From the NCBI RefSeq assembly GCF_010093065.1, contig NZ_CP048113.1:2976001-3040000 (forward strand): a DNA stretch of 64,000 nucleotides, in the 5' to 3' direction. Shown piece after piece: positions 14,217 to 42,554 of the stretch. The notes beneath the pieces were generated by a model, which was not told the origin of the DNA, ran no database searches, and saw only the letters and a list, made by a program, of their open reading frames with translations. Both the position numbers and the translations under genes were made by a program. How positions within the stretch are numbered: the stretch's first letter is position 1; the number at the start of each line of letters is the position of its first letter. The DNA is from Chitinophaga agri (GTDB lineage Bacteria; Bacteroidota; Bacteroidia; Chitinophagales; Chitinophagaceae).

Positions 14217-14228
14217 ACAAAGTAGCTG

Positions 14229-15212: not shown

Positions 15213-15267
15213 GCTGTTACTCTTAAAGTTTGAAAGTTAAATGCCCTAATTTATATTAAGGCAGGGG

Positions 15268-15298: not shown

Positions 15299-15399
15299 GT
15301 AAAACTTCAGAGTAAAATCCACCAGATTTTAAATACTATATATTAAATATTACATATATTAGCGGGTAGACTGCCTGTTATAAGTTAATATCCTGTCCT

Positions 15400-16044: not shown

Positions 16045-16144
16045 TGTACGTTCGTTTTTCCTTTATACAACATAAAGTGACAATAGTGCGCTGGCAGGGT
16101 AACACCCCTGCCGGCTGATACCCTGTTATTCATATTAAACTGGT

Positions 16145-16226
16145 ACCAAAAGGTCACTTCAAGGGCACTTCAATATCCCAGGGATATTGAAGTGCCCTTG
16201 AAGTGACCTTTTGGTGACCTTATAGT
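16145..16226. repeat. Periodic palindrome A: 35-bp arms made of 11-bp units
   Basis: A perfect inverted repeat: arms 16145-16179 and 16181-16215 with a single central base. The right side is a tandem array of 11-base units: GATATTGAAGT (16183), GCCCTTGAAGT (16194), GACCTTTTGGT (16205) and GACCTTATAGT (16216). The last unit lies outside the palindrome. The left arm is the reverse complement of the first three. It is not a normal terminator: no T-tract and no loop. It lies 100 bases after the stop of the membrane protein gene and about 280 bases from the thiolase stop. Confidence 0.9.
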
Positions 16227-16370
16227 AGCCTGCTAATAACGGTATTTCACCCTGATTAAAGCGGCTGCTCTACATCATAAATACTGATAATCACCAGTTT
16301 GAAAAAAAAGACACTCCCATTTCAGACAATAGGGAGGAACTATAACCCCTAAATATCTGATAATCAATAA

Positions 16371-16410
16371 AAAAGAAAAGGGCATCCACTATCAGTGAAC
16401 GCCCTTTTCC
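16371..16410 (-). terminator. Terminator downstream of the thiolase gene
   Basis: A 9-bp stem (16375-16383 with 16401-16409) plus an inner CACT/AGTG pairing, followed leftward by TTTTTTATT. It lies about 100 bases past the thiolase stop. Confidence 0.7.
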
Positions 16411-16508
16411 AATCAGAGACTCAGGGTAATATCTTAAAGATCAGGTCTGTTATATGAGAAAATAATTAGATTGATCGGAAATGAATGATAAAATGCAGGA
16501 GCAATCAA

Positions 16509-17687: not shown

Positions 17688-17760
17688 CCGTAGAAATTTA
17701 AGTCACGCCAGTAGGCGGGGCTGTTAAGATTGTTTGGTTTTCACCAAATATAACGGAATT

Positions 17761-18420
17761 TCACAAACGGTAGCCCAGCTTAAATCCGAATGCGAAGCTT
17801 GGACTATATCCATCTTCATCGATAGAAAGACGCAGGAAACGGTCAGTATCACGGTAAGAATCATAAGGATCTCCCGGTGTCGTACGCCGATGTCTGAATC
17901 CACAACCTGCATACAGCTCTATCAGTATACGACGGTCCGGACCGACATATCGCTGTACCCCCATATTGGCAGACAGTGCACTTACTGCTTTCTTCTGCCT
18001 TACTGTATACATGTTGGTATTAGTGCCGTCGAAACTGTAAAACTGTTCATTGTAACGGATCTCTTTATAGAGCCCCATCAAACTGACATAAAAACTCCTG
18101 TGTTCCTTTTGCCAGAAGGAAGGAAAGAATTTAATCTCAGGACGTACACGAAAGCCTCTTCTGTCACGACTGTCTTCGTAGGTGTCAGGCAATACATAGA
18201 GCAGCGCTGTCGCATCAAGCCCAACGGCCACCGTTTCAGAGAAACGGTACTCCAGGCCCAGAGAAGGGCCTCCCTCCGGCTCTGTCAATGAACTAAGCGT
18301 CGTATTAAGAAAGACGCCTTTCTGTGAGGGGAGCACTTTCTTTTGTGTCTCCTTTTCCTCCTGCGCCGTAGCAATGCTACCAACAAACAGCAGACAACAT
18401 GCGAGTAATAAATGTTTCAT
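17761..18420 (-). CDS. Exported barrel-like protein, paralogue of the upstream gene
   Basis: 219 residues from the ATG at 18418-18420; an in-frame extension to 18501 would bury the signal peptide (MKHLLLACCLLF...ATAQ). The mature part contains EYRFSETVAVG, FRVRPEIKFF and a final GYRL, resembling DUF3575-type outer-membrane proteins of Bacteroidota. It resembles the preceding gene product in layout: EYRF, RPE followed by alternating aromatics, YKE/YKK, GP-RI-E, terminal GYR. Third gene of a three-gene operon. Specific role unknown. Confidence 0.75.
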   Translation of the reverse strand: MKHLLLACCLLFVGSIATAQEEKETQKKVLPSQKGVFLNTTLSSLTEPEGGPSLGLEYRFSETVAVGLDATALLYVLPDTYEDSRDRRGFRVRPEIKFFPSFWQKEHRSFYVSLMGLYKEIRYNEQFYSFDGTNTNMYTVRQKKAVSALSANMGVQRYVGPDRRILIELYAGCGFRHRRTTPGDPYDSYRDTDRFLRLSIDEDGYSPSFAFGFKLGYRL

Positions 18421-28511: not shown

Positions 28512-29303
28512 GTGCCTTTACATCAGCCGCAAACTACGATCCGCCCTGTAGCGGGCATTTTCGTCCTTCTATCTGTATTTTGTTCTGTCACTTTTTTCTC
28601 CGCCTGCACGCAACAGGGGAAAAAACCTGCGCTAACCGGGTTGCAGCAACAGGGGCTTACCTATACCACGCATGAAGGGGTGATCGGAGAACGTAAGAAG
28701 ATCGCATTACCTAACGGGGCCGCTGTCATACTGAACAGTAACTCCCGTCTCCTGGTACCGTCAGACTTTGCCCAGAGCCATACCCTGCTGCTGGATGGCG
28801 AGGCTTATTTTGATACCACGGCCTTTCCATTGACAGTAAAGACCAATATCCTGACCATGACCGCCCAAAAGCCTTCCGCCTTCAAGTTACGTTGCTTCGA
28901 AGCGCAGCAGGGAGCCACCGCTTATGTAACGGCGGGCGAAGTGGTTGTAAAAAAGTCTTATCATTCTCAGACTGACAATCAGCCGGAAACGCTGGGATTA
29001 GGAAATATGGTGCTGGCGAATAAAGAAATCGACCTGATGGAGAAAGAGACCTATCATCCGGAGGAGATGACAATCTGGTTACAAGACAAGCTGGTATTTG
29101 AGAATCTGCCGTTCATGAATGCTGTCAAGAAACTCGAGGAGTGGTACAGCACAGAAATTTATGTGGAAGGTAATGTGGCCGCTGCGGGCAATGTGAGTGG
29201 TGAGTTTAGTGCAGCTTCCCTGGCACAGGTACTGGATAAATTGAAAGAGACGGCTAAGTTTAGCTATAAGGTAAAGAAGAACAAAGTGATGGTGGATTTT
29301 TAA
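28512..29303 (+). CDS. Stand-alone FecR-like lipoprotein (FecR + DUF4974 domains)
   Basis: 263 residues, GTG start at 28512 (no in-frame ATG near). N-terminus is a signal with a possible lipobox (FFSACTQQG), so it is exported and probably lipidated. Residues about 55-160 match a FecR domain (ERKKIALPNGAAVILNSNSRL, LLLDGEAYF, VTAGEVVVKK). The C-terminus (about 190-263) matches DUF4974 (LVFENLPFMNAVKKLEEWY...AKFSYKVKKNKVMV). It lacks the cytoplasmic anti-sigma segment and inner-membrane helix of a normal FecR, and no sigma factor or TonB receptor is adjacent. Confidence 0.8.
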   Translation: MPLHQPQTTIRPVAGIFVLLSVFCSVTFFSACTQQGKKPALTGLQQQGLTYTTHEGVIGERKKIALPNGAAVILNSNSRLLVPSDFAQSHTLLLDGEAYFDTTAFPLTVKTNILTMTAQKPSAFKLRCFEAQQGATAYVTAGEVVVKKSYHSQTDNQPETLGLGNMVLANKEIDLMEKETYHPEEMTIWLQDKLVFENLPFMNAVKKLEEWYSTEIYVEGNVAAAGNVSGEFSAASLAQVLDKLKETAKFSYKVKKNKVMVDF

Positions 29304-29401: not shown

Positions 29402-30433
29402 TCAGCTTAGCTCTGCGCCTACTTTCTTCAGCAACTCCAGTGTCTTACGTACACCTTCGTCTTCAGAGAGTTTTGCGCCTTCGTATTCTATTCCGATATG
29501 ACCTGTATAACCGGCGTCCTTCACGATCTTTAACATCTTAGCATAGTCTGTCTCTATACAGTTCCCATTTGCATCAAAATCGTGCGTTTTAGCACTTACA
29601 CCTTTTGCAAATGGCATCAGCTCCGTCACACCTTCATAACGGTCATACTCTTCCAGGCATTTGGTAGCGGCCCATCCCTGTGGTGTATTATCTACAGGTT
29701 TGGTACGATTCAGGCAAAAGTTACCGAAATCAGGTAAGGTACCGCAGTTTGGTCGGTTTACCTGTTTCATCACGTTTGCCAGCCATTTACCATTGGAAGA
29801 ACTACCACCATGATTTTCTACGATCACGTTGATATTGTGTGTATTGGCGAAGTCAGAGAGTTTTGCCAGGGACTCTGTCACCGCCTTGGAGACGTCATCC
29901 GGTTTGCCCTCTCCTGCCGCATTTACACGGATAGCGTGGCATCCCAGATATTCAGCTGCTTCCACCCACTTGTAGTGGTTTTCCACGGCCTTCAATCTTT
30001 TCTTCACATCCATATCTCCCATTTCACCTTCACCGTCAATCATGATCAATACGCTGCGCACGCCAACGTCACTGCAACGTTTCTTGAGATCTGCCAGGTA
30101 TGCCTTATCAGTCGCCTTATCCTTAAAGAACTGATTTACATATTCTACTGCCTCAATACCAAAGTCATTCTTTGCTTTAGCAGGAAAATCAAGATGATTC
30201 AGTTTACCTGAAAACAAGGCTTCGTGAAAAGACCATTCTGCCAGGGAGATCTTAAAGAACAGATCTTTGGCCGTTTTTGCCTCCGGGGTCTGGCCGGCAT
30301 TGGTACTGTCTTTGCTATCATTCGTGGACGCGCCGTTGTTGCACGAGCTGAGAACAGAAGGTAAAAGGCCTACTCCCATTGAATACAGCGCCATTTGCCT
30401 GAGGAAGTCCCGACGGTGTTTAGGATTGTTCAT
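29402..30433 (-). CDS. Exported sugar phosphate isomerase/epimerase-like TIM-barrel protein
   Basis: 343 residues from the ATG at 30431-30433. A twin-arginine signal (HRRDFLRQM) with a lipobox-like end (LSSC, Cys about 31) suggests Tat export, perhaps as a lipoprotein. The mature part is an AP-endonuclease-2/xylose-isomerase-type barrel: KISLAEWSFHEALF, VRSVLIMIDGEGEMG, HNINVIVENHGGSSSNG, GTLPDFGNFCLN, GVSAKTHDFD, GHIGIEYEG, which supplies the Glu, Asp and His metal ligands of the family. Substrate unknown. It follows the nine-gene operon after 213 bases and may be separate. Confidence 0.85.
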   Translation of the reverse strand: MNNPKHRRDFLRQMALYSMGVGLLPSVLSSCNNGASTNDSKDSTNAGQTPEAKTAKDLFFKISLAEWSFHEALFSGKLNHLDFPAKAKNDFGIEAVEYVNQFFKDKATDKAYLADLKKRCSDVGVRSVLIMIDGEGEMGDMDVKKRLKAVENHYKWVEAAEYLGCHAIRVNAAGEGKPDDVSKAVTESLAKLSDFANTHNINVIVENHGGSSSNGKWLANVMKQVNRPNCGTLPDFGNFCLNRTKPVDNTPQGWAATKCLEEYDRYEGVTELMPFAKGVSAKTHDFDANGNCIETDYAKMLKIVKDAGYTGHIGIEYEGAKLSEDEGVRKTLELLKKVGAELS

Positions 30434-30646
30434 ATACGTGGTTTTGTATAACAAAATACAATTTATGAGACAAAGAGAATACCCTATTAAAAAAAACTGT
30501 AAAAAATTACCTTAAAAGAATAGTTTTTTCACATTTTGTCATTATCTTGATACCCACTTAGTCGCAAATTCCCGTTTGTCTTTATTTATAATTCCACCTC
30601 ATTAATGTGCAGCACATTGATTTATGCCGCATTATAACATGATAAA

Positions 30647-31699
30647 CTAAAGCCGTTCCGTTTCAAGCGGGACGGCTTTGTCGCTTTCAGGCACGTCCTT
30701 CGGCGGATGCCGGTGCCACCAGGATGCCAGGAGCGAACCGGTAACATTCATCAGCGGACCAAACACTGCCGGCGCCAGTCCGATCGTAGCGATCTTACCC
30801 ATGTTCTTCGCAATAGCTGTTGCCAGTCCGCCGTTCTGCATACCCACCTCTATCGCAATCGTACGGCAATCCTGTTCATTCATCCTGATCAACCTGCATA
30901 TCCAGTAACCCAACCCATATCCTGACAGGTTGTGGATAAGAGAAGATAGTATTAACAGCATCCCCACATCCAGTAAACTCTCTCTTCCCTTAGCTGTAAT
31001 GATCACGATAATAAAAGCGATAGCTGACATGGAGACCTTCGGCATGACGTTATCCAGCCACTTTAGTTTACCACTCAGGAAGTGGTTGAATAACAGTCCG
31101 GCGGCCACCGGCAGTATCACAATTTTACAGATGTCCCACATCATAGCCGTCACACTGATATCGACATAGCTGCCAGCCAGCCATTGCATCAGGAAGGGTG
31201 TTACAAAAGGCGCCAGCATAGTAGATACTGCTGTCAGTGTAACAGAAAGTGCCAGATTCGCTTTGGCCAGATAGGAAATCACATTAGACGCCATACCACA
31301 TGGCACCGTACCTATCAATACTACCCCCGCGGCTATCTCCGGAGGGAACTGAAAGAGATGCGCGAGCGACCAGCCCACAAAAGGCATAATAGTGAAATGA
31401 CATACCACACCCGTGAATACACCCATCGGCATTTTTATAACGCCATAGAAATCGCGTACGCTCATCGCGGTACCCATGCCGAACATAATGATCTGTATCA
31501 GTGGCGTGATCAGTTTTGACAGGTCAAAACCTCCTACGGTGAGAAAGTATTGAGGATAATACATCGCGGTCGTGACAGCGGCGAATATCGTCAGTGTATA
31601 TACAAAGCCGCGGGTCTGCGGACGTCTCGAACAAATAACCGCCAGAACGATCCAGAACGCAATGATGAAAGGCCCGGCGGCAGGAAGTAATGTATTCAT
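30647..31699 (-). CDS. Bile acid:sodium symporter family (BASS) transporter
   Basis: 350 residues, about ten membrane segments. Conserved BASS features: FGMGTAMSVRDF, the GVVCHFTIMPFVGW segment, GTVPCGMASNVISYLAKAN (first crossover motif) and VGMQNGGLATAIAKNMG (second). The family couples sodium to uptake of organic anions, including bile acids and, in several branches, pyruvate, pantoate and other 2-oxo acids. It is the last gene of the nine-gene operon, so I infer uptake across the inner membrane of the keto-acid product made by the exported enzymes. A hairpin overlaps its 3' end. Confidence 0.88.
   Translation of the reverse strand: MNTLLPAAGPFIIAFWIVLAVICSRRPQTRGFVYTLTIFAAVTTAMYYPQYFLTVGGFDLSKLITPLIQIIMFGMGTAMSVRDFYGVIKMPMGVFTGVVCHFTIMPFVGWSLAHLFQFPPEIAAGVVLIGTVPCGMASNVISYLAKANLALSVTLTAVSTMLAPFVTPFLMQWLAGSYVDISVTAMMWDICKIVILPVAAGLLFNHFLSGKLKWLDNVMPKVSMSAIAFIIVIITAKGRESLLDVGMLLILSSLIHNLSGYGLGYWICRLIRMNEQDCRTIAIEVGMQNGGLATAIAKNMGKIATIGLAPAVFGPLMNVTGSLLASWWHRHPPKDVPESDKAVPLETERL
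30649..30679 (-). terminator. Hairpin overlapping the end of the transporter gene
   Basis: A 12-bp stem with one mismatch (30649-30660 with 30668-30679) that includes the last ten codons and part of the stop codon. The leftward tail (TTTAGTTTATC) is weak. It may end the nine-gene operon. Confidence 0.5.
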
Positions 31700-31736
31700 A
31701 AGTGGAAGTGTGCTTTATTAACAGTAAACATGCTGA

Positions 31737-32651
31737 TCACCAGGTTCTTTTTTCGAGCATTTTATCCAGCTCCTGGCGGGTCATCGGACGTAGCCCCTGC
31801 TGCCTGTGCTGCCATTCCAGGAATGCCTGGCGTATTCCATCGGGCCAGTTATTATCCAGCTCTCCCGGTGTATATTTCCCAGCCTTCAGCATCTCAAAAC
31901 TGAACTTATCTTTTATCTGTATAAAAGCGGCAATACCGATCACCTTTTCTGCCAGGTGAGCCGGCACAAATACCACACCTTCGCTGGATGTCAGCACAAG
32001 ATCACCCGGTAGTACCACTGCCTGGCCGATACGTACGGGTACATTCAATCCCGTCAGCATTACATTCTTCAGAAATGAAGGATGCCAGTCTCTCACCAGT
32101 GCATTAAATCCTGCTATTTCTTTAAGACCTTCGAGGTCTCTTGCTGCAGCGTCAAATACAACTCCATTACCGGAACGGGCATAGATGGCATTGCCCAGTG
32201 TAGAACCGATCAATGTTCCTTCTGCTATCTTACCAAAACCATCTGCTACATACACATCTCCCTTAGTCAGCTGTTGTATCGGCCAGGAATTAGTGTTACC
32301 TTTAAATCCTTTCTGCTGGCCTCTTTCCTTGACATGCGCTTCCACATCCGGACGGGCAGGGATGAACATCGCTGTTACGGCACGTCCCACTATAGGCTTG
32401 TCATCATAGATCATTTTCCACCCGCCGTCAAACTGACTATGGTATCCCTCACTGTCGAGTATCGTCCATACGTCATCCAATCCTACTGTTCGGGCCTGTT
32501 CAATAACTGCATCCGGTATTTTAGGACGGCCATCCGGAAAACGTTCGCCTGCCCAGTCGGCAGTCAGAAAAATCAGTTCCTCCCGGGAAATGGTCTGTGC
32601 CTTTATTAGGGCAGGCAGCAGCAGTAATGGGAGGAAGAAAGCTAATTTCAT
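31737..32651 (-). CDS. Exported RraA-family aldolase/decarboxylase
   Basis: 304 residues from the ATG at 32649-32651, giving a clean Sec signal (MKLAFFLPLLLL...IKAQ). The RraA core has GTLIGSTLGNAIYARSG followed by GVVFDAAARDLEGL; R171-D172 is the Arg-Asp pair that binds substrate and metal in 4-hydroxy-4-methyl-2-oxoglutarate (HMG) aldolases. The domain is longer than the approximately 160-residue RraA, with an extra N-terminal part (about 20-80) and an insertion around 100-125. True RNase-regulating RraA lacks an export signal. I infer cleavage or decarboxylation of a 2-oxo acid in the periplasm. Operon position 8. Confidence 0.85.
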   Translation of the reverse strand: MKLAFFLPLLLLPALIKAQTISREELIFLTADWAGERFPDGRPKIPDAVIEQARTVGLDDVWTILDSEGYHSQFDGGWKMIYDDKPIVGRAVTAMFIPARPDVEAHVKERGQQKGFKGNTNSWPIQQLTKGDVYVADGFGKIAEGTLIGSTLGNAIYARSGNGVVFDAAARDLEGLKEIAGFNALVRDWHPSFLKNVMLTGLNVPVRIGQAVVLPGDLVLTSSEGVVFVPAHLAEKVIGIAAFIQIKDKFSFEMLKAGKYTPGELDNNWPDGIRQAFLEWQHRQQGLRPMTRQELDKMLEKRTW

Positions 32652-32717
32652 ATCATTAGTAATTAAGAACCATGAATTGATGATAATGGGTTGCTGTTGG
32701 GACATCTGTGTTTGGGC

Positions 32718-33956
32718 TTATTTAGCCTGTACAGCCAGCCCATTCAGATCATATACTACTTTACCGGCACGGACCGTTAGTTCACAAAGTAACCTGCTGT
32801 TACCTGCTACCCTGGTACTGGCGTCAGTGAAACCGAATTTACCATTTTCAACACGTAATAACGCGATATCTGCCACACTGTTTTCGGACAAACTCCCCAG
32901 CTCTTCATGACGGATTGCCTTTGCCGCTTCCGATGTAGTCGCCTTCACCAGTTCAGGCAATGCCATACCCATATTCAGGAACTTTGACATTACATTCAAC
33001 AGGTCTTTCATATCTCCGTTCATACTACCGGTATGAATATCTGTACTGATCGTACTGGGGAAGAAACCGGCTTTTAACGCGGGTATAGCCTGTGAGTAAC
33101 TAAAGCTGGTACCACCATGCCCCACATCGAACACGATGCCTTTTTTACGGGCATCCTGTACAAAAGGACGCAGGTTTCCGTTATCATCCACAATGGACAT
33201 ACGGCCTTTTACTTTCGCATAAGCATGGGTAAAAATATCTCCGGGACGCAGGTGCTGCATGAACAGGTCTTCCAGTGATAACGGCGGATTGTTACCACCA
33301 AAATCGATCATCACCGGACAGGACGTTGCCGTTCCTGCTTCTACGGCGCGATCAACTGGTGTCCATTCACCACCTTCGTAGTGAGCCACTTTCACGCCTA
33401 CCACCCAGTTCTTAAATCTACGTATGGTTAACGCCGTCATCTTAGCATCCATATCATTGAGGTCCTGCTCATAAGGACCTCCCTGCATTCCATTGCCCAC
33501 AATATTAATGAAGGCAAACACCCGTGTTTTGGAATGCATGATCGTCTGATTGAGGAACAGCTCAAAGTTGCGCCATCCGGAACTACCGGCATCTACCACG
33601 GTAGTCACGCCACAGCGAAAGGTGAATCCGTCAGGTGCGATGGCATCATAACTATTGTTCAGATAACGGTTCGGCGTAGTGCCAATAAAATTATGCGTAT
33701 GAATATCTATCAGACCAGGCGTGACATAGAGCCCGCTGGCGTCAATTACTCTCTTTGCCGTTGCGGGATCAATATGTGCAGCGACCTTTGCGATCGTATC
33801 CTCTCTCAGTGCGACATCCATTACCGCATCTATCTTGTTCTTCGGATCGATCACATGTCCTCCTCTGATCAGTAACGTATACTCCTGGCTATACGCACCA
33901 GCATAGCAAAGGCAGCCCGATACCAGGAGTACCAGGTATTTAAGAATGCTCCTCAT
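32718..33956 (-). CDS. Exported amidohydrolase/deacetylase (EF_0837-like)
   Basis: 412 residues, Sec signal (about 1-23, ending AYS). Dihydroorotase-like composite domain then a TIM barrel. Metal site: H86-T-H88 (DIHTHNF), K189 as carbamylated-lysine candidate (GVKVAHY), H244 (IFTHAY) and the late Asp in STISTDIHTG. Where a His is usual after a V-M-V strand, this protein has D218 (VMIDFG). The family removes acyl groups from amino acid or amino-sugar-acid derivatives, and in other bacteria its genes accompany DgaE-like PLP lyases and KDPG-type aldolases. Here it sits between a DgaE-like gene and an RraA gene. Confidence 0.85.
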   Translation of the reverse strand: MRSILKYLVLLVSGCLCYAGAYSQEYTLLIRGGHVIDPKNKIDAVMDVALREDTIAKVAAHIDPATAKRVIDASGLYVTPGLIDIHTHNFIGTTPNRYLNNSYDAIAPDGFTFRCGVTTVVDAGSSGWRNFELFLNQTIMHSKTRVFAFINIVGNGMQGGPYEQDLNDMDAKMTALTIRRFKNWVVGVKVAHYEGGEWTPVDRAVEAGTATSCPVMIDFGGNNPPLSLEDLFMQHLRPGDIFTHAYAKVKGRMSIVDDNGNLRPFVQDARKKGIVFDVGHGGTSFSYSQAIPALKAGFFPSTISTDIHTGSMNGDMKDLLNVMSKFLNMGMALPELVKATTSEAAKAIRHEELGSLSENSVADIALLRVENGKFGFTDASTRVAGNSRLLCELTVRAGKVVYDLNGLAVQAK

Positions 33957-34029
33957 TGACTTACTTTTTAAATATTGAGACCTGTATATGGAGAGAAGAA
34001 GGTTTCCGTATCACTAAACACACCATTTA

Positions 34030-35274
34030 TCAACCATGCGCTTCTGACAGTGCTTTTTCTGTCAGCACTTTCTTTAATTGTGTTGCTACTATCTTTTCCT
34101 GTCCTGGTACCAGCATCCAGGTTGTGACATTGAAGGTATGCTGATCTGCGCCATCTGCCACCTCTATGGATGGTGTACCACTACGCAGTTTTTCCCTGAT
34201 CTCAGCTGCGGTAGCAGGTATCTTTTTCGGATCCCAGGAGATATGTAATGTAGGAATATGATTTGCCAGCGGTGGTACTACGACTTTGGTTTCCACCCCT
34301 CCTACTGTTTTCACGGCATCGCTGATCAGCTTGATCTGTGCCTCCCACATCTTCCATTCCCTGTCATGATCGGTGGCCAGATAAGTTTCGAGTGCCACCA
34401 GCATCCCAAGGATCTCCTCCTTGTTCACTTTTAAGCCTCTGCCAACGGTATTACCGCGTGGCGGCGCACTTAAACGGGCTGCTTCAATGTATTTTTTCCT
34501 GCCCAGTAAAAGCCCTGCGCTTTGCGGACCACGGATACCTTTACCGCCTGAAAAGCATACCAGGTCATATCCCATAGCGGTATATCTGAACAGGTTTTCC
34601 ACCGGCGGTACATCTGCGGCACAGTCGATCATGGTAGGAATACCATGTGCCTGTGCTATCTTCAGAAATTCCTCTACCTGTATCTTACCGTCGAAGTTGT
34701 TGGCATTCAGAAAATACATCAGCGCTGTTTTATCACTGATGGTCTTCTCCAGTTCTTCTTTTGTTTCGATGTAAATGATCTTCAGCCCTGTATTCTTCAG
34801 CGCATGTGCATACGCGATATCATGCGCTTTCTGAATGATCACTTCGGTCTTCATGCCCGTACCTTCCAGAAAAGGCAGTTGGGCCACTTTCTTCTCATCC
34901 ATACCTGTCAATACACCGGCGGCGCCCAATGTCATGGCTGCTGCCGCACCTGATGTAACAGTAGCATATTCACATTTCAGCAGCTTTGCAATACGCTGTC
35001 CCACCTTATCCTGTAATTCATCCAGCAGCACGTATTCCTTCGATGCATAATTGATGGCGCTCATCACCTCGTCCCGCATAAGGGAGCCTGTCATGAACGT
35101 ATACGTACCTGCTGCGTTGATAAACGTACGGATACCCAGTTCTTTAAAGTAATCTTTTGCCCCGGTTGCTTCATCTGCCGATCCTTCAGTTATGGGCAAT
35201 AGTTTAGCGCTGCCTGCAAAAGCCCCGAATACGGGTATTGCAGACATATTTTTCAATAAGTCTCTGCGGTTCAT
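34030..35274 (-). CDS. Exported SelA/DgaE-like PLP-dependent lyase
   Basis: 414 residues. N-terminal twin-arginine signal (NRRDLLKNM, residues 2-10, then a hydrophobic stretch to about 25). Fold type I PLP enzyme of the SelA-like group: TSGAAAAMTLG binds phosphate, D217 (TMIDCAAD) should contact the pyridine nitrogen, and K245 in CFSGGKGIRGPQ forms the Schiff base. The closest described members are D-glucosaminate-6-phosphate ammonia-lyase (DgaE) and EF_0838. Export by Tat fits a protein that must fold with its cofactor in the cytoplasm. Probably a beta-elimination enzyme on a 2-amino-3-hydroxy acid. Not a true selenocysteine synthase, which is not exported. Confidence 0.85.
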   Translation of the reverse strand: MNRRDLLKNMSAIPVFGAFAGSAKLLPITEGSADEATGAKDYFKELGIRTFINAAGTYTFMTGSLMRDEVMSAINYASKEYVLLDELQDKVGQRIAKLLKCEYATVTSGAAAAMTLGAAGVLTGMDEKKVAQLPFLEGTGMKTEVIIQKAHDIAYAHALKNTGLKIIYIETKEELEKTISDKTALMYFLNANNFDGKIQVEEFLKIAQAHGIPTMIDCAADVPPVENLFRYTAMGYDLVCFSGGKGIRGPQSAGLLLGRKKYIEAARLSAPPRGNTVGRGLKVNKEEILGMLVALETYLATDHDREWKMWEAQIKLISDAVKTVGGVETKVVVPPLANHIPTLHISWDPKKIPATAAEIREKLRSGTPSIEVADGADQHTFNVTTWMLVPGQEKIVATQLKKVLTEKALSEAHG

Positions 35275-35307
35275 ATGTAAAAAGAAAAGAGTAAAGAAAA
35301 ACGTTCC

Positions 35308-35769
35308 CTAGAGCATTGCTATGCAATCCATCTCTACGAGCGAATCGCCTGGCACACCGCCATATACGGCTACCGTAGTACGTACGGGCGGATTACTGCC
35401 GAAACGACCTTTATACACTTCATTCATCGCTTTGTAGTCATTCAGATCGTGCAGGAACACACTTACCTTCAGCACCTTGTTCATCGAAGACCCTGCCTTG
35501 ATCAACACCTTTTCCATTTCTATCAATACATGATCTGTATGGGCTTTGATATCTCCTTCAAAGTGAGCGCCGATACCGGCTACATACACCGTGTTTCCAT
35601 GTATCCGGAAACTGGAGAACAATGGTACGTCCTGATCATAAATCACCTCTCCCTGCGGAGTGGCATCCGGTAATGCCGGTGCTGCGGCTTTTGCAATGGC
35701 GTTGATACCTGTTATACCAGCCAGTGTGGCTGCCATCTTCTTTAATACGGAACGTCTCTGGTTTTGCAT
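35308..35769 (-). CDS. Exported RidA-family enamine/imine deaminase
   Basis: 153 residues. Twin-arginine-like N-terminus (QRRSVLKKM) and a hydrophobic segment (about 12-27) mark it as exported, unusual for RidA, which is normally cytoplasmic. The core keeps the functional residues: R130 (PPVRTTVAV, equivalent to Arg105 of E. coli RidA) and E146 in the terminal VEMDCIAML. RidA hydrolyses 2-aminoacrylate and related imines to 2-oxo acids and ammonia. In this operon it would act on the unstable product of the neighbouring PLP lyase (33 bases downstream). It follows SusD after 10 bases. Confidence 0.88.
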   Translation of the reverse strand: MQNQRRSVLKKMAATLAGITGINAIAKAAAPALPDATPQGEVIYDQDVPLFSSFRIHGNTVYVAGIGAHFEGDIKAHTDHVLIEMEKVLIKAGSSMNKVLKVSVFLHDLNDYKAMNEVYKGRFGSNPPVRTTVAVYGGVPGDSLVEMDCIAML

Positions 35770-35779
35770 GATTTCTGTG

Positions 35780-37315
35780 TTAGTTATTTTTATCCCACCA
35801 TACGCGGGTTGTCATAAGGTTTGCTCCCTGGCGGCCGATCGCTTCGGCAAGGCTTGCACTGTTTACACTCTCTTCTGAAGGTGGGTACAGCAAGCGGCGG
35901 GGAATTGTGCCACCAGTAGTGTTACCAGGTGCATTTACAGGTGTCAGTACCGGATATCCCGTACGACGCCAGTTAGCATGTATCTCCTGTTCATCCAGGA
36001 ACAAAGCTATCCATTTCTCCTGACCTATCATCGCCTTTTTAGCCTCCGTACTGCCTGTCAGCGGATGAGCCGCCTGATAGGCCGCGATCTTTTCCTGCGC
36101 AATCACACCCGCATTGCCAAATAACGCCCAGTTACGCATAGCAGCACCAATGGCATTGGAATAAGCTGCCGCAGCATCTCCTTCCCACCAGCCCAGCAAT
36201 GCTGCCTCTGCTAACAACAGATTCACTTCTGCTGCACTCATCACAATAAATGGTGCATTGTATTGCAGGATAGTGGCCGGATTAGGTTCAGACAGGCTCG
36301 GGAAATCAGTCGGTTTGTTCAGTAATCCGTTAGGCATACCTTTCTGCAATGCAGTGCTGGTATCTGCCTTACCATTGTTCCACACTATTGCTATTACATT
36401 CAGACGGGGATCTTTGTTCGTTTTCAGCACATCAATAAATGTCTGTGCCAGTTTACCACCTTCCGTATTGCTATTACCATTTGCGACTGCATAATCATTC
36501 GATAACATACTGGCGGCAGCCGGATTACGATTAATGGCCTGTGAACCATCCACATATTTCATCGTAGCGATATCTGCATCAGCTGTTATAACACCTCCCG
36601 CAATTGCCTTCTTCACCCATGTTTCTGCCACTGCCGGCGACTTTCTGGAAATACGCATACCCAAACGCAGCATCAGTGAATAAGCGAACTTCTTCCATTT
36701 CGTCACGTCTCCTGCATAGATAAAATCACCTGCTCCGAACGTAGGTGCTGCCGGGTCCAGCTTTGCCGATGCTTCATCCAGCTCCTTTAACATGTCGTTA
36801 TAGATCGATTCCTGTGTATCGTATGCCGGTGTGAAGTCATTATCGGTATACCCTTTCACTGCCGCTGAATAAGGAATATCCCCATACAGATCGGTGATAC
36901 GATGCATGATATAGACCCTGAATATGCGCGCAATAGCAAGTTTATTCACATCTGCTGCTACATCCGGTTTCAGACCATTGATGGTCGTACCGATTTCGTT
37001 AACAGCGGTCGTATACCCTGTAGTGAAATAGTCATATGGGTAGGTACCTTGCTGGAAGTAATATTTATCACCGATACCTGGTACATCCTTGTAAGTTGCA
37101 AAGTGCTGCATGGAACCTCCGCACGCCAGTACATCTGTAGAGAAGTAACTGTTGCCAAAGGCATCGAGCAATGCTTTACTGAACATGTATTCCGGTTGTA
37201 CACTTGTGGACGCATCCGGATTGACATTCATTTCTTCAAATCCTTTATCACAGGACTGGAAAGCCAGCATAGAAGCCAGCGCTGTATATAGTAAGCAGTT
37301 AAAGCGCATTTTCAT
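35780..37315 (-). CDS. SusD/RagB-like outer-membrane lipoprotein (SusD-like_2)
   Basis: 511 residues. Lipobox AFQSC (Cys about 22) then CDKGFEEMNVNPDAST, the typical start of the SusD-like_2 family. Helical TPR-rich fold; conserved TDLYGDIPYSAAV and a C-terminal RRLLYP plus VWWDKN. It forms the lid over the SusC barrel and binds the ligand before import. Gap to SusC is 19 bases. The SusD-like_2 branch is often found with non-glycan substrates, in agreement with the absence of glycoside hydrolases here. Confidence 0.93.
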   Translation of the reverse strand: MKMRFNCLLYTALASMLAFQSCDKGFEEMNVNPDASTSVQPEYMFSKALLDAFGNSYFSTDVLACGGSMQHFATYKDVPGIGDKYYFQQGTYPYDYFTTGYTTAVNEIGTTINGLKPDVAADVNKLAIARIFRVYIMHRITDLYGDIPYSAAVKGYTDNDFTPAYDTQESIYNDMLKELDEASAKLDPAAPTFGAGDFIYAGDVTKWKKFAYSLMLRLGMRISRKSPAVAETWVKKAIAGGVITADADIATMKYVDGSQAINRNPAAASMLSNDYAVANGNSNTEGGKLAQTFIDVLKTNKDPRLNVIAIVWNNGKADTSTALQKGMPNGLLNKPTDFPSLSEPNPATILQYNAPFIVMSAAEVNLLLAEAALLGWWEGDAAAAYSNAIGAAMRNWALFGNAGVIAQEKIAAYQAAHPLTGSTEAKKAMIGQEKWIALFLDEQEIHANWRRTGYPVLTPVNAPGNTTGGTIPRRLLYPPSEESVNSASLAEAIGRQGANLMTTRVWWDKNN

Positions 37316-37334
37316 CCGTAGTAGTTTTAAAAGA

Positions 37335-40300
37335 TTAGAATTTCACCATCAGGTTAGCACCGAAGCTTCTTGTACGTGGCATACCGAATGCTTCAAAACC
37401 CTGCGCATTACCATTGGTGTAGCTGGATTCCGGATCGAAGTTATCCGTCTGTTTGTAAAGGATCAGCAGGTTACGTGCTACGAAAGAGAGCGAAGCACTC
37501 TGCACGACTTTCAGTTTTGCTACCGGCAACTGATAACTGAATATCACCTGGCGTAATTTAACAAAGCTGCCATCATACAGGAAGTGGTCTGTGTAATTCT
37601 TGGTGTTATCATAGTACAGACGCAGGTTAGCTACCGGGATCGTGTTATGATATTCGTTTCCTTTTTCATCCACACCGTTCAGTTCCAGTCCATTCTCTCT
37701 TCCTTCCAGTGTTCTCTTATGTAATCCAAAGCGAACAGCATATACATCAGTGCCGGAGAACACCTTGTTACCGAATTTACCATCAACCAGGATATCCAGT
37801 GACAGGCGTTTGTATTTGAAAGTATTGCTCAGACCCATTGTGAGTGGCGGTACACCTCTTCCCAATGGTTTCAGCTCGCTCTTCTGCTCATAACCTGTTG
37901 TGCTGTTGTAGACGGTCTGACCTTTTTCATTCTTCACAGTCGTATAGCCCATGATAATACCATAAGGCTGTCCGACAGTATTGTGGATGAAAGCCCAGCT
38001 ACCCACACTGGAGGCCATCTGTAAGGTATTCAGGCCAGCAGCCAGCTGTTCTACCTTGCTCTCGTTGTAGGCCATGTTATAGCTCACGTTCCAGGTAAAA
38101 TCTTTGCCTTTAACAGGTGTGCCGGTCAGGAGTAATTCAACCCCTCTGTTGGATAATTTACCAACGTTCAGGAGGGCGTTATTATAACCGGAAGCGGTAG
38201 AGATCGCAGTGCTTACAATATCATCTGTTGTTTGCTTTTTGTAGTAAGTCAGGTCAATGCCTAGTCTGTTATTCAGGAACTGCGCTTCACCGCCTATTTC
38301 ATATGTTGTTGATGTCAGTGGTTTCAGTGAGGAGTTGGTCACCAGGTTAACCCCGTTGGACTGTGTCACCTGTTGTACCGGACGACCCAGGTGGCCTCCC
38401 TGTACCATTGTATACGTCTGATTCAGGATGTAAGGATCAGGCGTAGCACCACCTACCTGTGCCCATGAAGCACGAAGTTTTGCAAAGCTGATCGCCTTCG
38501 GCATCTTCACCGCATCAGAGAGGATGAAGCTACCACCTACGGAAGGATAAAGAATGTTATTGCTCAGTGGGCTCAGTGTAGAGAACCAGTCCTGACGCGC
38601 CGTGAAGTTCAGGAAGAATATGGATTTATAATCCAGGTCCAGTGATCCGAACACAGAGTTCGTAGCGATCTTACCTCTTGTAGGCGTTGTCGTTGATGTG
38701 GTCAGGTTGGTAGCGCTATAGAAGAAAGGAATGATGAACTGTGTACCTGCGATCGCTGTCTGATTTGAAACAAAACGACGGGCGTTGCCCCCTACGAGCG
38801 CATTCAGTCCGATAGTACCGGCGATCTTCGTATTGTAACCGGCAGTCAGCATAGAGTTCGTCTCTGCTACTGAGTTCCTGAACTCACTGTATTCTCCTGC
38901 GGCGCCTGTTGTATATACCGTTCCTGTCGGAATGATGCCAACATAGTTATAGTCAAAGAAATCGCGGCTCACGGTTCCTTTCACGTACAGGTTTTTCAAC
39001 AGGTCATACTTCACGCTTGCCTGACCGATAAAACGGTTTTTGGTGTCATTGTTTCTGAACCGGTTGATCACAAAGTAAGGATTGGAAGCATACGCAGTTT
39101 CATTCCACTGGATCTCACGGCCTGTCTCATCATACCCAGGATTCATCCAGCGGACATCGACAGTGTTAGCAACCATATACACGCCCCAGTTGGGGTTACC
39201 GGTGGCATCCCCGGAGCTGGGACGGTTGGTTGCATTCTCTACATTATATTGCGCTACAGCTTCAATGCTCAGTTTTTTACCCAGGTAAGCATTCAGATTC
39301 AGGTTTGCGATCTTCTTGTCAAACTTAGAATTAGGAATGATGGCCTTACTGTTGGTATTGGAGAGCGAGAAGCGAAAATTCACAGCTTCACTACCACCAT
39401 TGAATGCTACAGTATTAGTGAATGTAGATCCTGTCTGGTAGAAGTTCTTGATATTATCTTTCTGTGCGACATAGGGATGCATCTTTCCATCAAAAGCGAT
39501 GTACTCAGTACCATCCATCTTTGTACCCCAGGAGCGGCGGCCGTAGGTAATTGCTTCAGCCTGTGATGTTGGTTTCAGTCCTTTATCACCCTGACCATAT
39601 TCATATTGCCATTCAGGCATTACAGCAGGTGCATCCAGCGTAAGGGTAGAGTTATAATCCACACCAATACCTTTACGGGCAACACCCTTTTTAGTAGTAA
39701 TCACGATCACACCATTGGCAGCACGGGAGCCATACAATGCTGCGGCAGAACCTCCTTTCAGTACACTGATGCTTTCGATATCATCCGGGTTAATACCACC
39801 GATACCATCACCCCTGTCGACGTTCTGACCACCACCACCGGTAGTAGGTGCACCACCGGGTGTAGTGTTATCGATCGGCATACCATTCACCACGTATAAA
39901 GGCTGGTTGTTACTACCGAGTGAATTATTACCACGGATCACCACACGGCTGGAACCACCAGGGCCACTGGCCAGACTGGTTGCATTCACACCCGGGATCT
40001 TTCCACTCAGTGCATTTGCCACATTGATCTCACGTGCCTGCGTAAATTCGCTACCCTTTACTTCGGATACTGCATACACAAGTGCTTTTTTCTCTTTTCT
40101 GATACCCAATGCCGTTACTACGACTTCAGATAATGATTCATTAGATTCAGCCAGGTTGACAGCCAGCGGTGCGTCCAGATCTGTTACACTCACCTCTTTT
40201 TTAGCGAATCCCATAGAACTGACTACCAGCACGAAGGGCGGCGTTGCGCCTTTCAGGTTTAGTTCAAAGCTACCGTCTGGTCCGGCCATTGCGGCAACAG

Positions 40301-40778
40301 TTGCGTTGCCTTTCAGTACCACGCTGGCACCAGGAATAGGTGCGCCATCAGGACCCGTCACTTTACCTTTCAGTTTGTCAGCCATCAGGCTGTTTACATT
40401 CAGTATGGTTGCTGTCGTTGGTACATAAATAGAATATTGTGTTTTATTGACACGCATGAAAGCCAGTGAAAAATCAGTAAGCAGCAGGCGTAGTGCAGCT
40501 TCTGTCTCCAGGGTCTCCGCCTTTGCCATTACTTCCGCAGTTATCACTTTCCCATCCAGTAATCCTTCCTTATAGGCGATACGGACATTCTGGAATTTCT
40601 TCAGCTTGATGAGCGCTTCTTTCAGGGACACATTAGCAGATACATGTTTTACAGGGATTTTATCAGACTGCCTCATGGCATACATCGAGGGCGTCTGTGC
40701 GCTGGCAGATAAGGTAATACCTGGCAGCAGGGCACTGGAGAGCAGCCCCAAAATGAGATTTTGGTTCAAAATGTTCAT
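37335..40778 (-). CDS. SusC/RagA-family TonB-dependent outer-membrane transporter with STN domain
   Basis: 1147 residues. Signal peptide (about 1-28, ending SASAQ). STN domain (about 45-118, VSLKEALIKLKKFQNVRIAY) that contacts the FecR partner. A carboxypeptidase-D-like domain (about 137-215, GKVTGPDGAPIPGASVVLKG) is followed by the plug (SEVVVTALGIRKEKKAL, NVANALSGKIPGVNATS, NQPLYVVNGMPI, DIESISVLKGGSAAALYGSRAANGVIVITTKKG). The barrel ends GANLMVKF. TonB-driven import of a ligand held by SusD. Presence of STN with an adjacent sigma/FecR pair indicates ligand-dependent autoregulation. Confidence 0.96.
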   Translation of the reverse strand: MNILNQNLILGLLSSALLPGITLSASAQTPSMYAMRQSDKIPVKHVSANVSLKEALIKLKKFQNVRIAYKEGLLDGKVITAEVMAKAETLETEAALRLLLTDFSLAFMRVNKTQYSIYVPTTATILNVNSLMADKLKGKVTGPDGAPIPGASVVLKGNATVAAMAGPDGSFELNLKGATPPFVLVVSSMGFAKKEVSVTDLDAPLAVNLAESNESLSEVVVTALGIRKEKKALVYAVSEVKGSEFTQAREINVANALSGKIPGVNATSLASGPGGSSRVVIRGNNSLGSNNQPLYVVNGMPIDNTTPGGAPTTGGGGQNVDRGDGIGGINPDDIESISVLKGGSAAALYGSRAANGVIVITTKKGVARKGIGVDYNSTLTLDAPAVMPEWQYEYGQGDKGLKPTSQAEAITYGRRSWGTKMDGTEYIAFDGKMHPYVAQKDNIKNFYQTGSTFTNTVAFNGGSEAVNFRFSLSNTNSKAIIPNSKFDKKIANLNLNAYLGKKLSIEAVAQYNVENATNRPSSGDATGNPNWGVYMVANTVDVRWMNPGYDETGREIQWNETAYASNPYFVINRFRNNDTKNRFIGQASVKYDLLKNLYVKGTVSRDFFDYNYVGIIPTGTVYTTGAAGEYSEFRNSVAETNSMLTAGYNTKIAGTIGLNALVGGNARRFVSNQTAIAGTQFIIPFFYSATNLTTSTTTPTRGKIATNSVFGSLDLDYKSIFFLNFTARQDWFSTLSPLSNNILYPSVGGSFILSDAVKMPKAISFAKLRASWAQVGGATPDPYILNQTYTMVQGGHLGRPVQQVTQSNGVNLVTNSSLKPLTSTTYEIGGEAQFLNNRLGIDLTYYKKQTTDDIVSTAISTASGYNNALLNVGKLSNRGVELLLTGTPVKGKDFTWNVSYNMAYNESKVEQLAAGLNTLQMASSVGSWAFIHNTVGQPYGIIMGYTTVKNEKGQTVYNSTTGYEQKSELKPLGRGVPPLTMGLSNTFKYKRLSLDILVDGKFGNKVFSGTDVYAVRFGLHKRTLEGRENGLELNGVDEKGNEYHNTIPVANLRLYYDNTKNYTDHFLYDGSFVKLRQVIFSYQLPVAKLKVVQSASLSFVARNLLILYKQTDNFDPESSYTNGNAQGFEAFGMPRTRSFGANLMVKF

Positions 40779-40832
40779 AGTTTTTTTTTACGTGTCCTAG
40801 TATTCCCGCATTAAGCGCGTGTTTTTCACACT

Positions 40833-41891
40833 TTACTTTCCTGAAGCGATTATTAGTTCCTTCTCCGAAGGCTGTTCAACTCTTACGTTGAGCGTAGTGG
40901 TAATTACAGTCAATAGTTCTTCTACGTTAGCTACGTTAATATCTCCTTCGATCTTTAGCTTTCTGATTGATTGTTCACTGAGCTTTACAGTATAACCATA
41001 GTTATCCTGCAATGTTTCGATAATTTCTCCTAAAGTGGCATCGGTAAACGTCAGCGGTACCTGTGTCCAACGTTTGATCGATTCTGGTTTGTTTATTTTT
41101 TTGGTTAGCAATAATTGATTGTCTGCATATTCAATATAGTCACCGGGCAACATGACAACAGCCTTCGGTGATCTGGGCCCATCATTAAATCCTACCTGTA
41201 TCTTTCCGGTTACCAGTCCTACTTTAGTTCTTCCGTGGCGGCTTCTCACATTAAAGGATGTACCCAGTACTTCAATGGTCAGCCCCTTACTATGCACAAG
41301 GAAACGCTGACCGGGTCTCACATTGGTGGTATCCCTGTTAAGATGTGCTACATCAAAGAAGGCCTCTCCGTCTATCCATACTTCCCTTGGTGCGGTAGTA
41401 TCCCATTTCTCCTGGAAGGTAATGGAGGTGGTGGCGTTCAATGTCACAACAGAATGATCTGGCAGGGTGATCGTTCTTTTTTCGCCATATCCTGTCGCGA
41501 TCATCTCCATATGCGGCCTGCTCAGCTGATTGTACAACAAATAGCCTCCTGCAGTAGCTAGCAGTGCAATAGCAGCGGCTCTTACCCATATGTTCATCCG
41601 TCGGAATATACCCGGGCGGCGTGATTCTTCTGCTGCGATCGTCGCAGTGATCCTGTCCAGTAAGTGTGCCTTATTATCTTTATTCTCCCACACTTCCTGA
41701 GAACGATAGGTGCGGATCACACTAACGGCAAAATCAAAGTTAGCAGCAGCAGATGGATACTTTACAGGGAATTCGCTCCAGAACTGTCCTACAGAAACAT
41801 CCGTTTCTTTTCCGGACACCCATCTGACGAAGTTGTCATCATCCAGGAAATCCTCCAGTGTATACGTTATATATTTTTCATTGTTCATCAC
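40833..41891 (-). CDS. FecR-family anti-sigma factor
   Basis: 352 residues. A cytoplasmic sigma-binding N-terminus (about 1-95), one membrane segment (about 106-124, AAAIALLATAGGYLLY), then the periplasmic FecR domain (GYGEKRTITLPDHSVVTLNATTSI, WIDGEAFFDV, VLGTSFNVRSRHG) and a DUF4974-like C-terminus (VPLTFTDATLGEIIETLQDNYGYTV). It holds the adjacent ECF sigma factor inactive until the SusC STN domain signals ligand. Gaps to neighbours are 42 and 54 bases. Confidence 0.93.
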   Translation of the reverse strand: MMNNEKYITYTLEDFLDDDNFVRWVSGKETDVSVGQFWSEFPVKYPSAAANFDFAVSVIRTYRSQEVWENKDNKAHLLDRITATIAAEESRRPGIFRRMNIWVRAAAIALLATAGGYLLYNQLSRPHMEMIATGYGEKRTITLPDHSVVTLNATTSITFQEKWDTTAPREVWIDGEAFFDVAHLNRDTTNVRPGQRFLVHSKGLTIEVLGTSFNVRSRHGRTKVGLVTGKIQVGFNDGPRSPKAVVMLPGDYIEYADNQLLLTKKINKPESIKRWTQVPLTFTDATLGEIIETLQDNYGYTVKLSEQSIRKLKIEGDINVANVEELLTVITTTLNVRVEQPSEKELIIASGK

Positions 41892-41933
41892 GATATCCCC
41901 TATTTACTACTATTAGACATGACATGGTTGAAA

Positions 41934-42554
41934 TTATCCCTCGGGAACAGGAATTTTTTTAGAAAAATTTCTGAGAAGGAAAAAGAGTACACCTAAAAGG
42001 GTCAGGAAGCGTTTATCTGACACCTTCTGAAGGTTATCGAGGGCTTTATATAATAACTTGTAAGTGGAGCTCATATTAATGTCCATAATGACAGCTATTT
42101 CTTCATAGGACATACCTTCATAAAAACGAAGAAATATAATTTCCTGCTGACGCGCAGGTAATGTGTTAACAAGTGCGATCACCTGACCTCTGAGCTCCTG
42201 TTCTTCCTGACGGAAGGAGGCATCAGGTATGAAGCTGACAGCAAAAGCACCCTCTCCGGCGGCATTGTCCAGTTCTACAAATTTTGAAAGGGATTGTATT
42301 TTACGAAACAGCGTAGAGCGTAAAGCTTTATACAGATAGTTCTTTACAGAGACAGGATTACCAAGCCGTGCACGGGTGGTCCATAGTCTTACAAAAAGAT
42401 CATGTACCACATCCTGGATCAGGTCCGCATCCTGCGTAAATTTGCGGCCGTAATTGTTCAACAGTTCATAAAATTCGCCGTAGAGCGCAGTAAAGGCGTC
42501 CCAGTCCCCCTCTTTAAACGCATTCCACCATAACACGTGACTCTCCGATTGCAT
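41934..42554 (-). CDS. ECF RNA polymerase sigma factor
   Basis: 206 residues, sigma-70 regions 2 and 4. Region 2: DAFTALYGEFYELLNNYGRKF, then DLIQDVVHDLFVRLWTTR. Region 4: LPARQQEIIFLRFYEGMSYEEIAVIMDINMSSTYKLL. It has the usual Bacteroidota length and heads the nine-gene operon. It should direct transcription of the SusC/SusD operon when released by the FecR protein. Confidence 0.94.
   Translation of the reverse strand: MQSESHVLWWNAFKEGDWDAFTALYGEFYELLNNYGRKFTQDADLIQDVVHDLFVRLWTTRARLGNPVSVKNYLYKALRSTLFRKIQSLSKFVELDNAAGEGAFAVSFIPDASFRQEEQELRGQVIALVNTLPARQQEIIFLRFYEGMSYEEIAVIMDINMSSTYKLLYKALDNLQKVSDKRFLTLLGVLFFLLRNFSKKIPVPEG

Follow-up and report, generated by a model that had tools for sequence, protein, structure and literature searches.

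A nine-gene SusCD operon of Chitinophaga agri encodes a candidate extracytoplasmic, phosphate-free pathway for amino-sugar acids

Results

Gene content of the operon

We analysed a 64,000-nucleotide stretch (hereafter the window; positions 2,976,001-3,040,000) of the 7.97 Mb single-contig genome of the soil bacterium Chitinophaga agri, in which an operon of nine full-length open reading frames (ORFs), all on the minus strand and running from position 42554 down to 30647, appears to encode an uptake system and four exported enzymes for the breakdown of amino-sugar acids. In order, the genes encode an extracytoplasmic function (ECF) sigma factor with sigma-70 regions 2 and 4 (41934..42554; Pfam PF08281 and PF04542 over cut-off), a FecR-type anti-sigma factor (40833..41891; PF04773 and PF16344 over cut-off), a SusC-type TonB-dependent outer-membrane transporter (37335..40778; TIGR04056 610.7 bits, cut-off 368), a SusD-type surface lipoprotein (35780..37315; PF12771 293.7 bits, PF12741 225 bits), a RidA with a twin-arginine signal (35308..35769; PF01042 73.4 bits), a DgaE-related (DgaE/SelA-like) pyridoxal phosphate (PLP) ammonia lyase, also with a twin-arginine signal (34030..35274), an apparently Sec-exported amidohydrolase of the PRK09237/cog3964 type that we propose to be a de-N-acylase (32718..33956), an apparently Sec-exported RraA-like protein that we propose to be a class II 2-oxo-acid aldolase (31737..32705; PF03737 60 bits) and a BASS-family inner-membrane organic-anion transporter (30647..31699; PF01758 135.3 bits, Pfam SBF cut-off 24.3). 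All nine family names rest on Pfam scores over cut-off. With SusC and SusD adjacent and accompanied by an ECF sigma factor and FecR, the locus has the make-up of a SusCD-type uptake operon under sigma/FecR control. For the BASS protein, the best NCBIfam match was PanS, a ketopantoate/pantoate transporter, at 239.9 bits (cut-off 400), and the cut-off of TIGR00841 was likewise not reached.

An earlier note on this DNA had described these nine genes in this order on one strand, separated by 10-73 bases, free of internal terminators and of any glycoside hydrolase (GH), peptidase or sulfatase. The ORFs, Pfam and NCBIfam bear this out: the measured gaps are 42, 54, 19, 10, 33, 73, 12 and 37 bases (the likelier RraA start, Met19, would make the amidohydrolase-RraA gap 66 bases), and none of the three hydrolase classes is found by Pfam among the nine genes. 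No minus-strand terminator was listed between operon genes, the four minus-strand sites each lying within a gene, in a scan that is itself weak evidence (14 sites on both strands against a shuffled mean of 11.2, standard deviation 3.2) and whose promoter model is ill-suited to Bacteroidota. The operon region contained no repeats of at least 20 bases, and the window no tRNA genes. Elsewhere in the genome the PLP enzyme has only a weak partial match (35%) and the amidohydrolase no second match, so that a second operon is not expected.

A possible tenth gene on the same strand (29402..30454) starts 192 bases past the BASS gene and encodes an apparently exported xylose-isomerase-like TIM-barrel lipoprotein (PF01261 85.5 bits) with weak similarity (20 bits) to 2-oxo-tetronate isomerase. 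Further downstream, on the plus strand, we observed a lone gene for a FecR-like lipoprotein with FecR and FecR_C domains (28512-29303), with no sigma gene directly adjoining.

Conservation of the operon and of its enzyme core

A species-level genome scan with the PLP enzyme yielded 43 loci. Each of the 15 Chitinophaga-type loci (L001-L015) has all nine genes on one strand and in unchanged order; two of these loci (L005 and L006) belong to a single assembly and have the same identities, so that other counts use 14. The xylose-isomerase-like gene is kept downstream in 14/14 of these (L006 dropped), with extra ORFs between it and the operon in L013, L014 and L015. The earlier note had proposed conservation beyond close relatives as its own check, and the enzyme core passes it, though rearranged: amidohydrolase, PLP lyase, RidA and RraA recur together in Flavobacteriaceae, Saprospiraceae, Cyclobacteriaceae and other genomes.

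To these we added nine further 16-20 kb regions from class-level genomes, giving 36 non-Chitinophaga PLP loci (L016-L042 and L067-L075) in which nine genes on each side were counted; neighbours were labelled by similarity to one reference each, and the species- and class-level genomes may overlap. RidA accompanied the PLP gene in 29 of the 36, the amidohydrolase in 28, RraA in 24, a GSDH-cytochrome c fusion in 16, a second RidA-family protein in 16, SusC in 13, SusD in 12, BASS in 11, a CBM9 protein in 7, a gluconolactonase in 6, a TRAP transporter in 5 and a PIG-L deacetylase in 3, all of which are lower bounds because contig ends truncate several of the loci. PLP matches at E <= 1e-90 occurred in 10 of 396 class-level genomes, and amidohydrolase matches at an equal threshold in the identical 10 (Fisher 4e-20); RraA matches of at least 52% identity occurred in all 10 and in one more (Fisher 5e-19), with weaker RraA matches in four further genomes. 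As the 10 genomes are related (8 genera, 5 families), these p-values overstate independence and serve as a guide only.

Several Flavobacteriaceae carry, soon after the amidohydrolase and RraA genes, another DgaE-like PLP gene with 43-46% identity to that of the window (L022:13550-14788, L025:13451-14692, L027, L029-L031 and L033), which may serve an epimeric substrate. In L025 (Confluentibacter; 36-8913), genes for GH92, GH3, GH97, an endonuclease/exonuclease/phosphatase-family protein and GH125 form a row immediately upstream of the cassette, a possible hint at a glycan source. Two acidobacterial loci (L040 and L041) hold PLP homologues of about 50% identity that have the twin-arginine motif and lack amidohydrolase or RidA neighbours; in both, a GSDH-type dehydrogenase gene adjoins the PLP gene on the opposite strand.

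Residue losses in the PLP lyase and the presence of a dedicated RidA

Among solved structures, DgaE is the nearest to the PLP enzyme (best PDB match 7lc0/7lce, E 3e-36), although the residues that mark DgaE are absent and the DgaE equivalog cut-off was not reached (158.9 bits), nor was that of the related subfamily TIGR01437 (202.7 bits, cut-off 385.3). We mapped residues onto DgaE (PDB 7lc0) in 170 homologues, comprising 49 locus sequences, 120 database matches listed and the window's own protein. The Schiff-base lysine, Lys245 in the window, is kept in 170/170; for DgaE we refer to the aligned lysine in the SGAK motif, which is residue 213 by the chain letters, although the text of PMC9529869 gives Lys-217. 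By contrast, Arg301, Arg332, Arg346 and His163 of DgaE are each kept in 0/170, and in the window's enzyme T342, A373 and W386 replace the three arginines and N193 replaces the histidine.

The roles of these residues in DgaE suggest what their loss may mean. According to PMC9529869, the substrate phosphate was docked at Arg301, Arg332 and Arg346, and His163 serves as the proton donor to C3. The H163A mutant was still active, but released the enamine into solution, and the authors point out that enamines of this kind are broken down by RidA (PMC9529869). Judging from this mutant, a clade of PLP enzymes that lacks the proton-donor histidine probably releases an enamine instead of a finished imine, which would explain the presence of a dedicated RidA.

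The RidA of the window is consistent with such a role. Its Arg130 and Glu146, at least 97% invariant among 46 aligned RidAs, correspond to the catalytic pair of RidA (Arg105 and Glu120), so that the protein has the arginine and glutamate of an imine/enamine deaminase. It scored over the cut-off of PF01042 and below that of the subfamily TIGR00004 (67 vs 106).

RraA within and outside the cassette

The RraA-like protein keeps, at Arg189-Asp190, the Arg123-Asp124 pair of HMG/CHA aldolase (PDB 3noj), the core of that enzyme. The pair is invariant in the 39 cassette sequences, in 14/14 from loci outside the cassette and in 120/120 among the database matches listed. At the position of Asp102, serine is found in all 15 Chitinophaga-type sequences, including the window's, and aspartate in 23 of the 24 other cassette sequences. 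We considered whether a missing Asp102 excludes aldolase activity across the RraA family, and dropped the idea given the aspartate in those 23 sequences.

If RraA cleaves 2-keto-3-deoxy acids, it is predicted to occur also alongside sugar-acid dehydratases, the enzymes that convert neutral aldonates to such acids. We therefore followed all 14 RraA matches outside the PLP cassette, which fall into 12 loci in 8 genomes (L106-L117). An enolase-superfamily protein of the galactonate/gluconate dehydratase kind adjoins RraA in 11 of the 12 loci, with a twin-arginine motif in 11/11; the best NCBIfam model for each of these dehydratase-like proteins was galactonate dehydratase, at 193-263 bits and thus below the cut-off of 311. 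In the twelfth locus (L106) a PQQ (pyrroloquinoline quinone) dehydrogenase-cytochrome c gene lies nearby. One locus, with the order SusC-SusD-RraA-dehydratase-BASS (L108:8967-12535), is the window's operon with an exchanged front end. Together these loci likely represent a sister system for neutral sugar acids, in which case two different routes to 2-keto-3-deoxy acids would share RraA.

This arrangement bears on an alternative in which the front half of the pathway operates as proposed, RraA is no lyase but has another role such as opening a lactone, epimerising or decarboxylating, and BASS or TRAP transporters bring in the 2-keto-3-deoxyaldonate intact, to be phosphorylated and cleaved inside the cell. 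The serine at the Asp102 position and the TRAP genes in 5 of the 36 loci fit this alternative, as does the ong pathway of Pseudoalteromonas prydzensis, in which 2-keto-3-deoxygluconate is phosphorylated, probably in the cytoplasm (PMC9537276). Nevertheless, the invariance of the Arg-Asp pair and the association of RraA with both putative routes to 2-keto-3-deoxy acids argue for cleavage by RraA, and we consider the alternative unlikely, while regarding it as the most serious competitor.

The amidohydrolase and pointers to the substrate

The amidohydrolase exceeded the cut-off of the PRK09237 amidohydrolase/deacetylase family model NF006689 (447.7 bits, cut-off 371), and its closest matches in the PDB were 8je0, 8wzy, 2ogj and 2ics, the last two being Atu3266 and an EF_0837-like protein. 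His86, His88, Lys189, His244 and Asp306 are at least 97% invariant among 49 sequences and account for five ligands of HxH-K-H-H-D, the metal-ligand set of cog3964.

The neighbours of the cassette in relatives give hints of the substrate. One cassette (L018) has genes for a GSDH-cytochrome c fusion, for another RidA-family protein and for a TRAP transporter of the DctPQM type, and an SGL-family gluconolactonase lies in or beside the cassette in L067, L068, L070 and L072. As a gauge of chance, ten genomes were searched with the GSDH-cytochrome c protein and with the lactonase: six of the 10 strongest GSDH-cytochrome c matches (10 genomes) lay inside the cassette, as did four of the eight strongest lactonase matches, with a fifth in an amidohydrolase-RidA-lactonase-BASS operon (L118) and a sixth immediately adjacent to a gene for GSDH-cytochrome c (L081). 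A dehydrogenase and a lactonase are the classical pair that converts an aldose to an aldonic acid. Because dehydrogenase, lactonase and sugar-acid-dehydratase-like genes accompany the enzymes in relatives, an amino-sugar acid is favoured over an N-acyl amino acid as substrate; the earlier note had left these two as alternatives, of which only the former is favoured by the neighbour genes. The L118 operon (5169-17999) contains SusC, SusD, amidohydrolase, RidA, lactonase and BASS genes together with a PLP-like protein only 31% identical to that of the window, which suggests a wider family of such systems.

With the same enzymes in the same location, the substrate could instead be an N-acyl D-amino acid with a 3-hydroxyl, such as D-serine, D-threonine or another beta-hydroxy amino acid from peptides or peptidoglycan, in which case RraA would decarboxylate or split the 2-oxo acid and BASS would import the product. 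The SusD protein does fall into the SusD-like_2/RagB Pfam families, RagB being a peptide-uptake lipoprotein, and weak activity on N-acetyl-D-serine occurs in the amidohydrolase family. The analogous deaminase OngC is also active on D-serine and D-threonine (PMC9537276). However, the company of GSDH-cytochrome c (16/36), CBM9 (7/36) and gluconolactonase (6/36) genes, and the pairing of RraA with sugar-acid-dehydratase-like proteins elsewhere, would be unexpected for amino acids, and we regard such a substrate as improbable.

Export signals

Export signals were judged by motif and hydrophobicity. As the earlier note had proposed for all four enzymes, the sequences are consistent with export, predicted by the twin-arginine translocation (Tat) route for RidA and the PLP enzyme and by Sec-like starts for the amidohydrolase and RraA. 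A twin-arginine motif was present near the N-terminus in 49/49 PLP enzymes, including those of Acidobacteria, and in 34/34 RidAs. A hydrophobic stretch came no more than 30 residues after the motif in all of them at a mild threshold, and in 44/49 and 33/34, respectively, at a stricter one; in RidA, Arg5-Arg6 is at least 97% invariant among the 46 aligned sequences. Hydrophobic Sec-like starts were found in 33/34 amidohydrolases, two of the 34 having the RR motif as well, and in 30/31 RraAs. The xylose-isomerase-like protein has a twin-arginine motif and a lipobox-like start in 14/14 Chitinophaga-type copies. As the motif precedes a hydrophobic stretch and the window's genome has one TatC match, RidA and the PLP enzyme have the features of Tat-exported proteins, their localisation being a prediction. 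The Tat route exports folded proteins, and so suits a cofactor-bearing PLP enzyme. Export of the cassette enzymes thus looks conserved. A reading in which the N-terminal starts are non-functional and the operon encodes a pathway for amino acids or sugar acids inside the cytoplasm, as dga and ong do, is scarcely credible. Even with motif and hydrophobicity as the sole basis for calling the signals, the motif recurs in every PLP enzyme and RidA counted above, the dehydratase-like proteins beside RraA elsewhere carry it in 11/11, and lipoprotein-like starts are seen on the second RidA-family proteins of other loci (5/13 by a script pattern, 11/13 by eye).

Discussion

We propose, with a probability of about 0.6, that the operon serves the extracytoplasmic, phosphate-free catabolism of 2-acylamino-2-deoxy-aldonic acids. 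The likeliest of these is N-acetyl-D-glucosaminate, which is N-acetylglucosamine oxidised at C1, or an epimer of it. Gene content, conservation, export motifs, residue losses and neighbourhoods were observed directly, and from them we infer the substrate, every reaction and which way transport runs. SusCD, under the control of its own sigma/FecR pair, would bring the substrate into the periplasm, where the Sec-exported amidohydrolase may, judging by its family, take off the acyl group as acetate. The Tat-exported DgaE-like lyase would then eliminate the 3-hydroxyl as water and probably release an enamine, which the Tat-exported RidA would convert, by way of enamine or imine, to 2-keto-3-deoxyaldonate and ammonia; this step may keep reactive chemistry out of the cytoplasm, where PLP enzymes are presumably vulnerable. 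The exported RraA would cleave the 2-keto-3-deoxy acid to pyruvate and glyceraldehyde, and BASS would import the organic acid. In some relatives a GSDH-cytochrome c dehydrogenase, and in fewer a gluconolactonase, would make the aldonic acid from the sugar in place, while in Chitinophaga it probably arrives ready-made or comes from unlinked genes. The order of steps from SusCD through deacylation, ammonia loss, RidA and RraA to BASS had been suggested in the earlier note and is compatible with these findings, with the aldol step inferred from families and neighbourhoods.

Several observations weigh against this pathway. The amidohydrolase passes the PRK09237 cut-off, but not that of the EF_0837 model TIGR03583 (236.1 bits vs cut-off 432). 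In addition, Asp218 stands, as a mark of the clade, in at least 97% of the 49 cassette amidohydrolases where Atu3266 (2ogj) has its strand-5 histidine, so that the EF_0837/cog3964 ligand set is incomplete. Ornelas et al. in 2013 reportedly found that Atu3266 prefers O-acetyl esters and is weak on N-acetyl-D-serine. In the PLP enzymes, enamine release is putative for the forms with Asn, Thr, Ala or Glu at the His163 position, and 11 of the 170 homologues have a histidine in the His162/163 loop (10 of these in the His162 column, one residue away), a possible alternative proton donor. The aldol step of RraA is predicted from families and neighbourhoods, and in the Chitinophaga-type sequences serine takes the place of Asp102. 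Five loci (L037-L041) have the PLP gene with neither amidohydrolase nor RidA nearby, the contig ending at the PLP gene in L037 and L039, and in two genomes (G334 and G250) RraA sits elsewhere, outside the PLP cassette.

The supply of the substrate raises similar objections. Of the 36 cassette loci, 30 are without a lactonase and 20 without a GSDH-cytochrome c gene, and four fusion proteins tested have modest GSDH scores (34-44 bits, cut-off 25), so that use of pyrroloquinoline quinone and the substrate are tentative. The window's operon itself has neither dehydrogenase nor lactonase. The nearest relatives in its own genome, a GSDH protein (48%) with an adjoining cytochrome c ORF (C1:1380451-1382075) and a lactonase (52%; C1:5011798), are unlinked: the GSDH-cytochrome c-like genes and this lactonase, the nearer of two relatives (the other being 34% identical), were found linked neither with one another nor with the operon. 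No match to an AA10 lytic polysaccharide monooxygenase (LPMO) was found in the window's genome, so that a direct link to chitin oxidation as in ong is unsupported here.

The ong system is the nearest parallel. According to PMC9537276, its deacetylase, PLP deaminase and RidA are each needed for growth of P. prydzensis on N-acetylglucosaminate, the role of RidA is left open by the authors, and ong clusters with an LPMO are reported from Gammaproteobacteria and one betaproteobacterium. It has in common with the window's system an unphosphorylated substrate, TonB-dependent outer-membrane uptake, de-N-acetylation followed by PLP-dependent deamination to a 2-keto-3-deoxy acid, and a dedicated RidA (PMC9537276). 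The ong enzymes, however, are predicted to be cytoplasmic, whereas those of the window carry export signals; OngC is a fold-type III PLP enzyme, not DgaE-type, and KdgK is found in ong where the window's system has RraA (PMC9537276). OngB is described as subtype V D-aminoacylase-like (PMC12017989), in contrast to the PRK09237-type amidohydrolase. As the ong enzymes are predicted to be cytoplasmic and come from other families, we consider the window's system analogous to ong and not a member of it; its amidohydrolase and PLP enzyme matched other families best, in a comparison in which the Ong families were known by description only.

Other known systems resemble parts of the pathway. The dga system of Salmonella (DgaABCD, DgaE, DgaF) likewise has a DgaE-type PLP ammonia lyase followed by an aldolase, and the same beta-elimination is expected; unlike the window's system, it acts on a 6-phosphate from uptake by a phosphotransferase system, keeps His163 and the three arginines in its lyase, and has an aldolase, DgaF, that acts on the phosphorylated keto acid, with no deacetylase named in the extracts of PMC9529869. 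A predicted glucosaminate route in the archaeon Natrarchaeobius also combines oxidation of the amino sugar by glucose dehydrogenase with a DgaE-like lyase, but places CE14 deacetylation first and assumes a phosphorylated intermediate, and no exported lyase or RraA is named in the extracts of PMC12343721. Atu3266/EF_0837-type proteins are among the four closest structures to the amidohydrolase and share most metal ligands, from which it differs in its apparent export, in Asp218 in place of the strand-5 histidine of 2ogj and in the EF_0837 score (236 vs cut-off 432). RraA shares the Arg123-Asp124 pair of 3noj and differs from it in apparent export, conserved extra N- and C-terminal segments and the serine at the Asp102 position.

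Among the matches listed from openly licensed PubMed Central literature, judged by titles, we found no description of this exported system. The earlier note's claim of novelty nevertheless needs narrowing: a phosphate-independent route of deacetylation and deamination with RidA was already known for N-acetylglucosaminate from the cytoplasm of marine Gammaproteobacteria (PMC9537276), so that what is new is confined to the predicted setting outside the cytoplasm, the choice of enzyme families and the use of RraA. Chief among the novel features are this conserved setting, the recruitment of different enzyme families, the proposed connection of lost product protonation in the lyase with a RidA of its own, and a front end that can be exchanged ahead of RraA.

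More broadly, and tentatively, Bacteroidota and possibly Acidobacteria might carry out a modular, phosphate-free metabolism resembling the Entner-Doudoroff pathway outside the cytoplasm. In such a scheme exported dehydrogenases and lactonases would make aldonic acids, and Tat-exported front ends would process them, a dehydratase for neutral sugars and amidohydrolase, PLP lyase and RidA for amino sugars, with a PLP lyase that has lost product protonation passing its enamine to the dedicated exported RidA. A shared exported RraA-type aldolase would then cleave the products, and BASS or TRAP transporters would import pyruvate-sized acids.

Sugars are usually imported and then phosphorylated before the carbon chain is cut. 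If the proposed pathway is correct, amino-sugar acids would be deacetylated, deaminated and probably split in the periplasm, a different metabolic layout in which the cell would gain acetate, ammonia and pyruvate-type acids without prior phosphorylation. It would explain exported proteins that are labelled RNase regulators or selenocysteine synthases in databases, and would suggest a function for at least 120 of the closest PLP relatives there, all at least 60% identical. The pathway also makes the natural role of cog3964-type amidohydrolases testable, and would give the RidA of ong a testable role, that of clearing an enamine released by the lyase.

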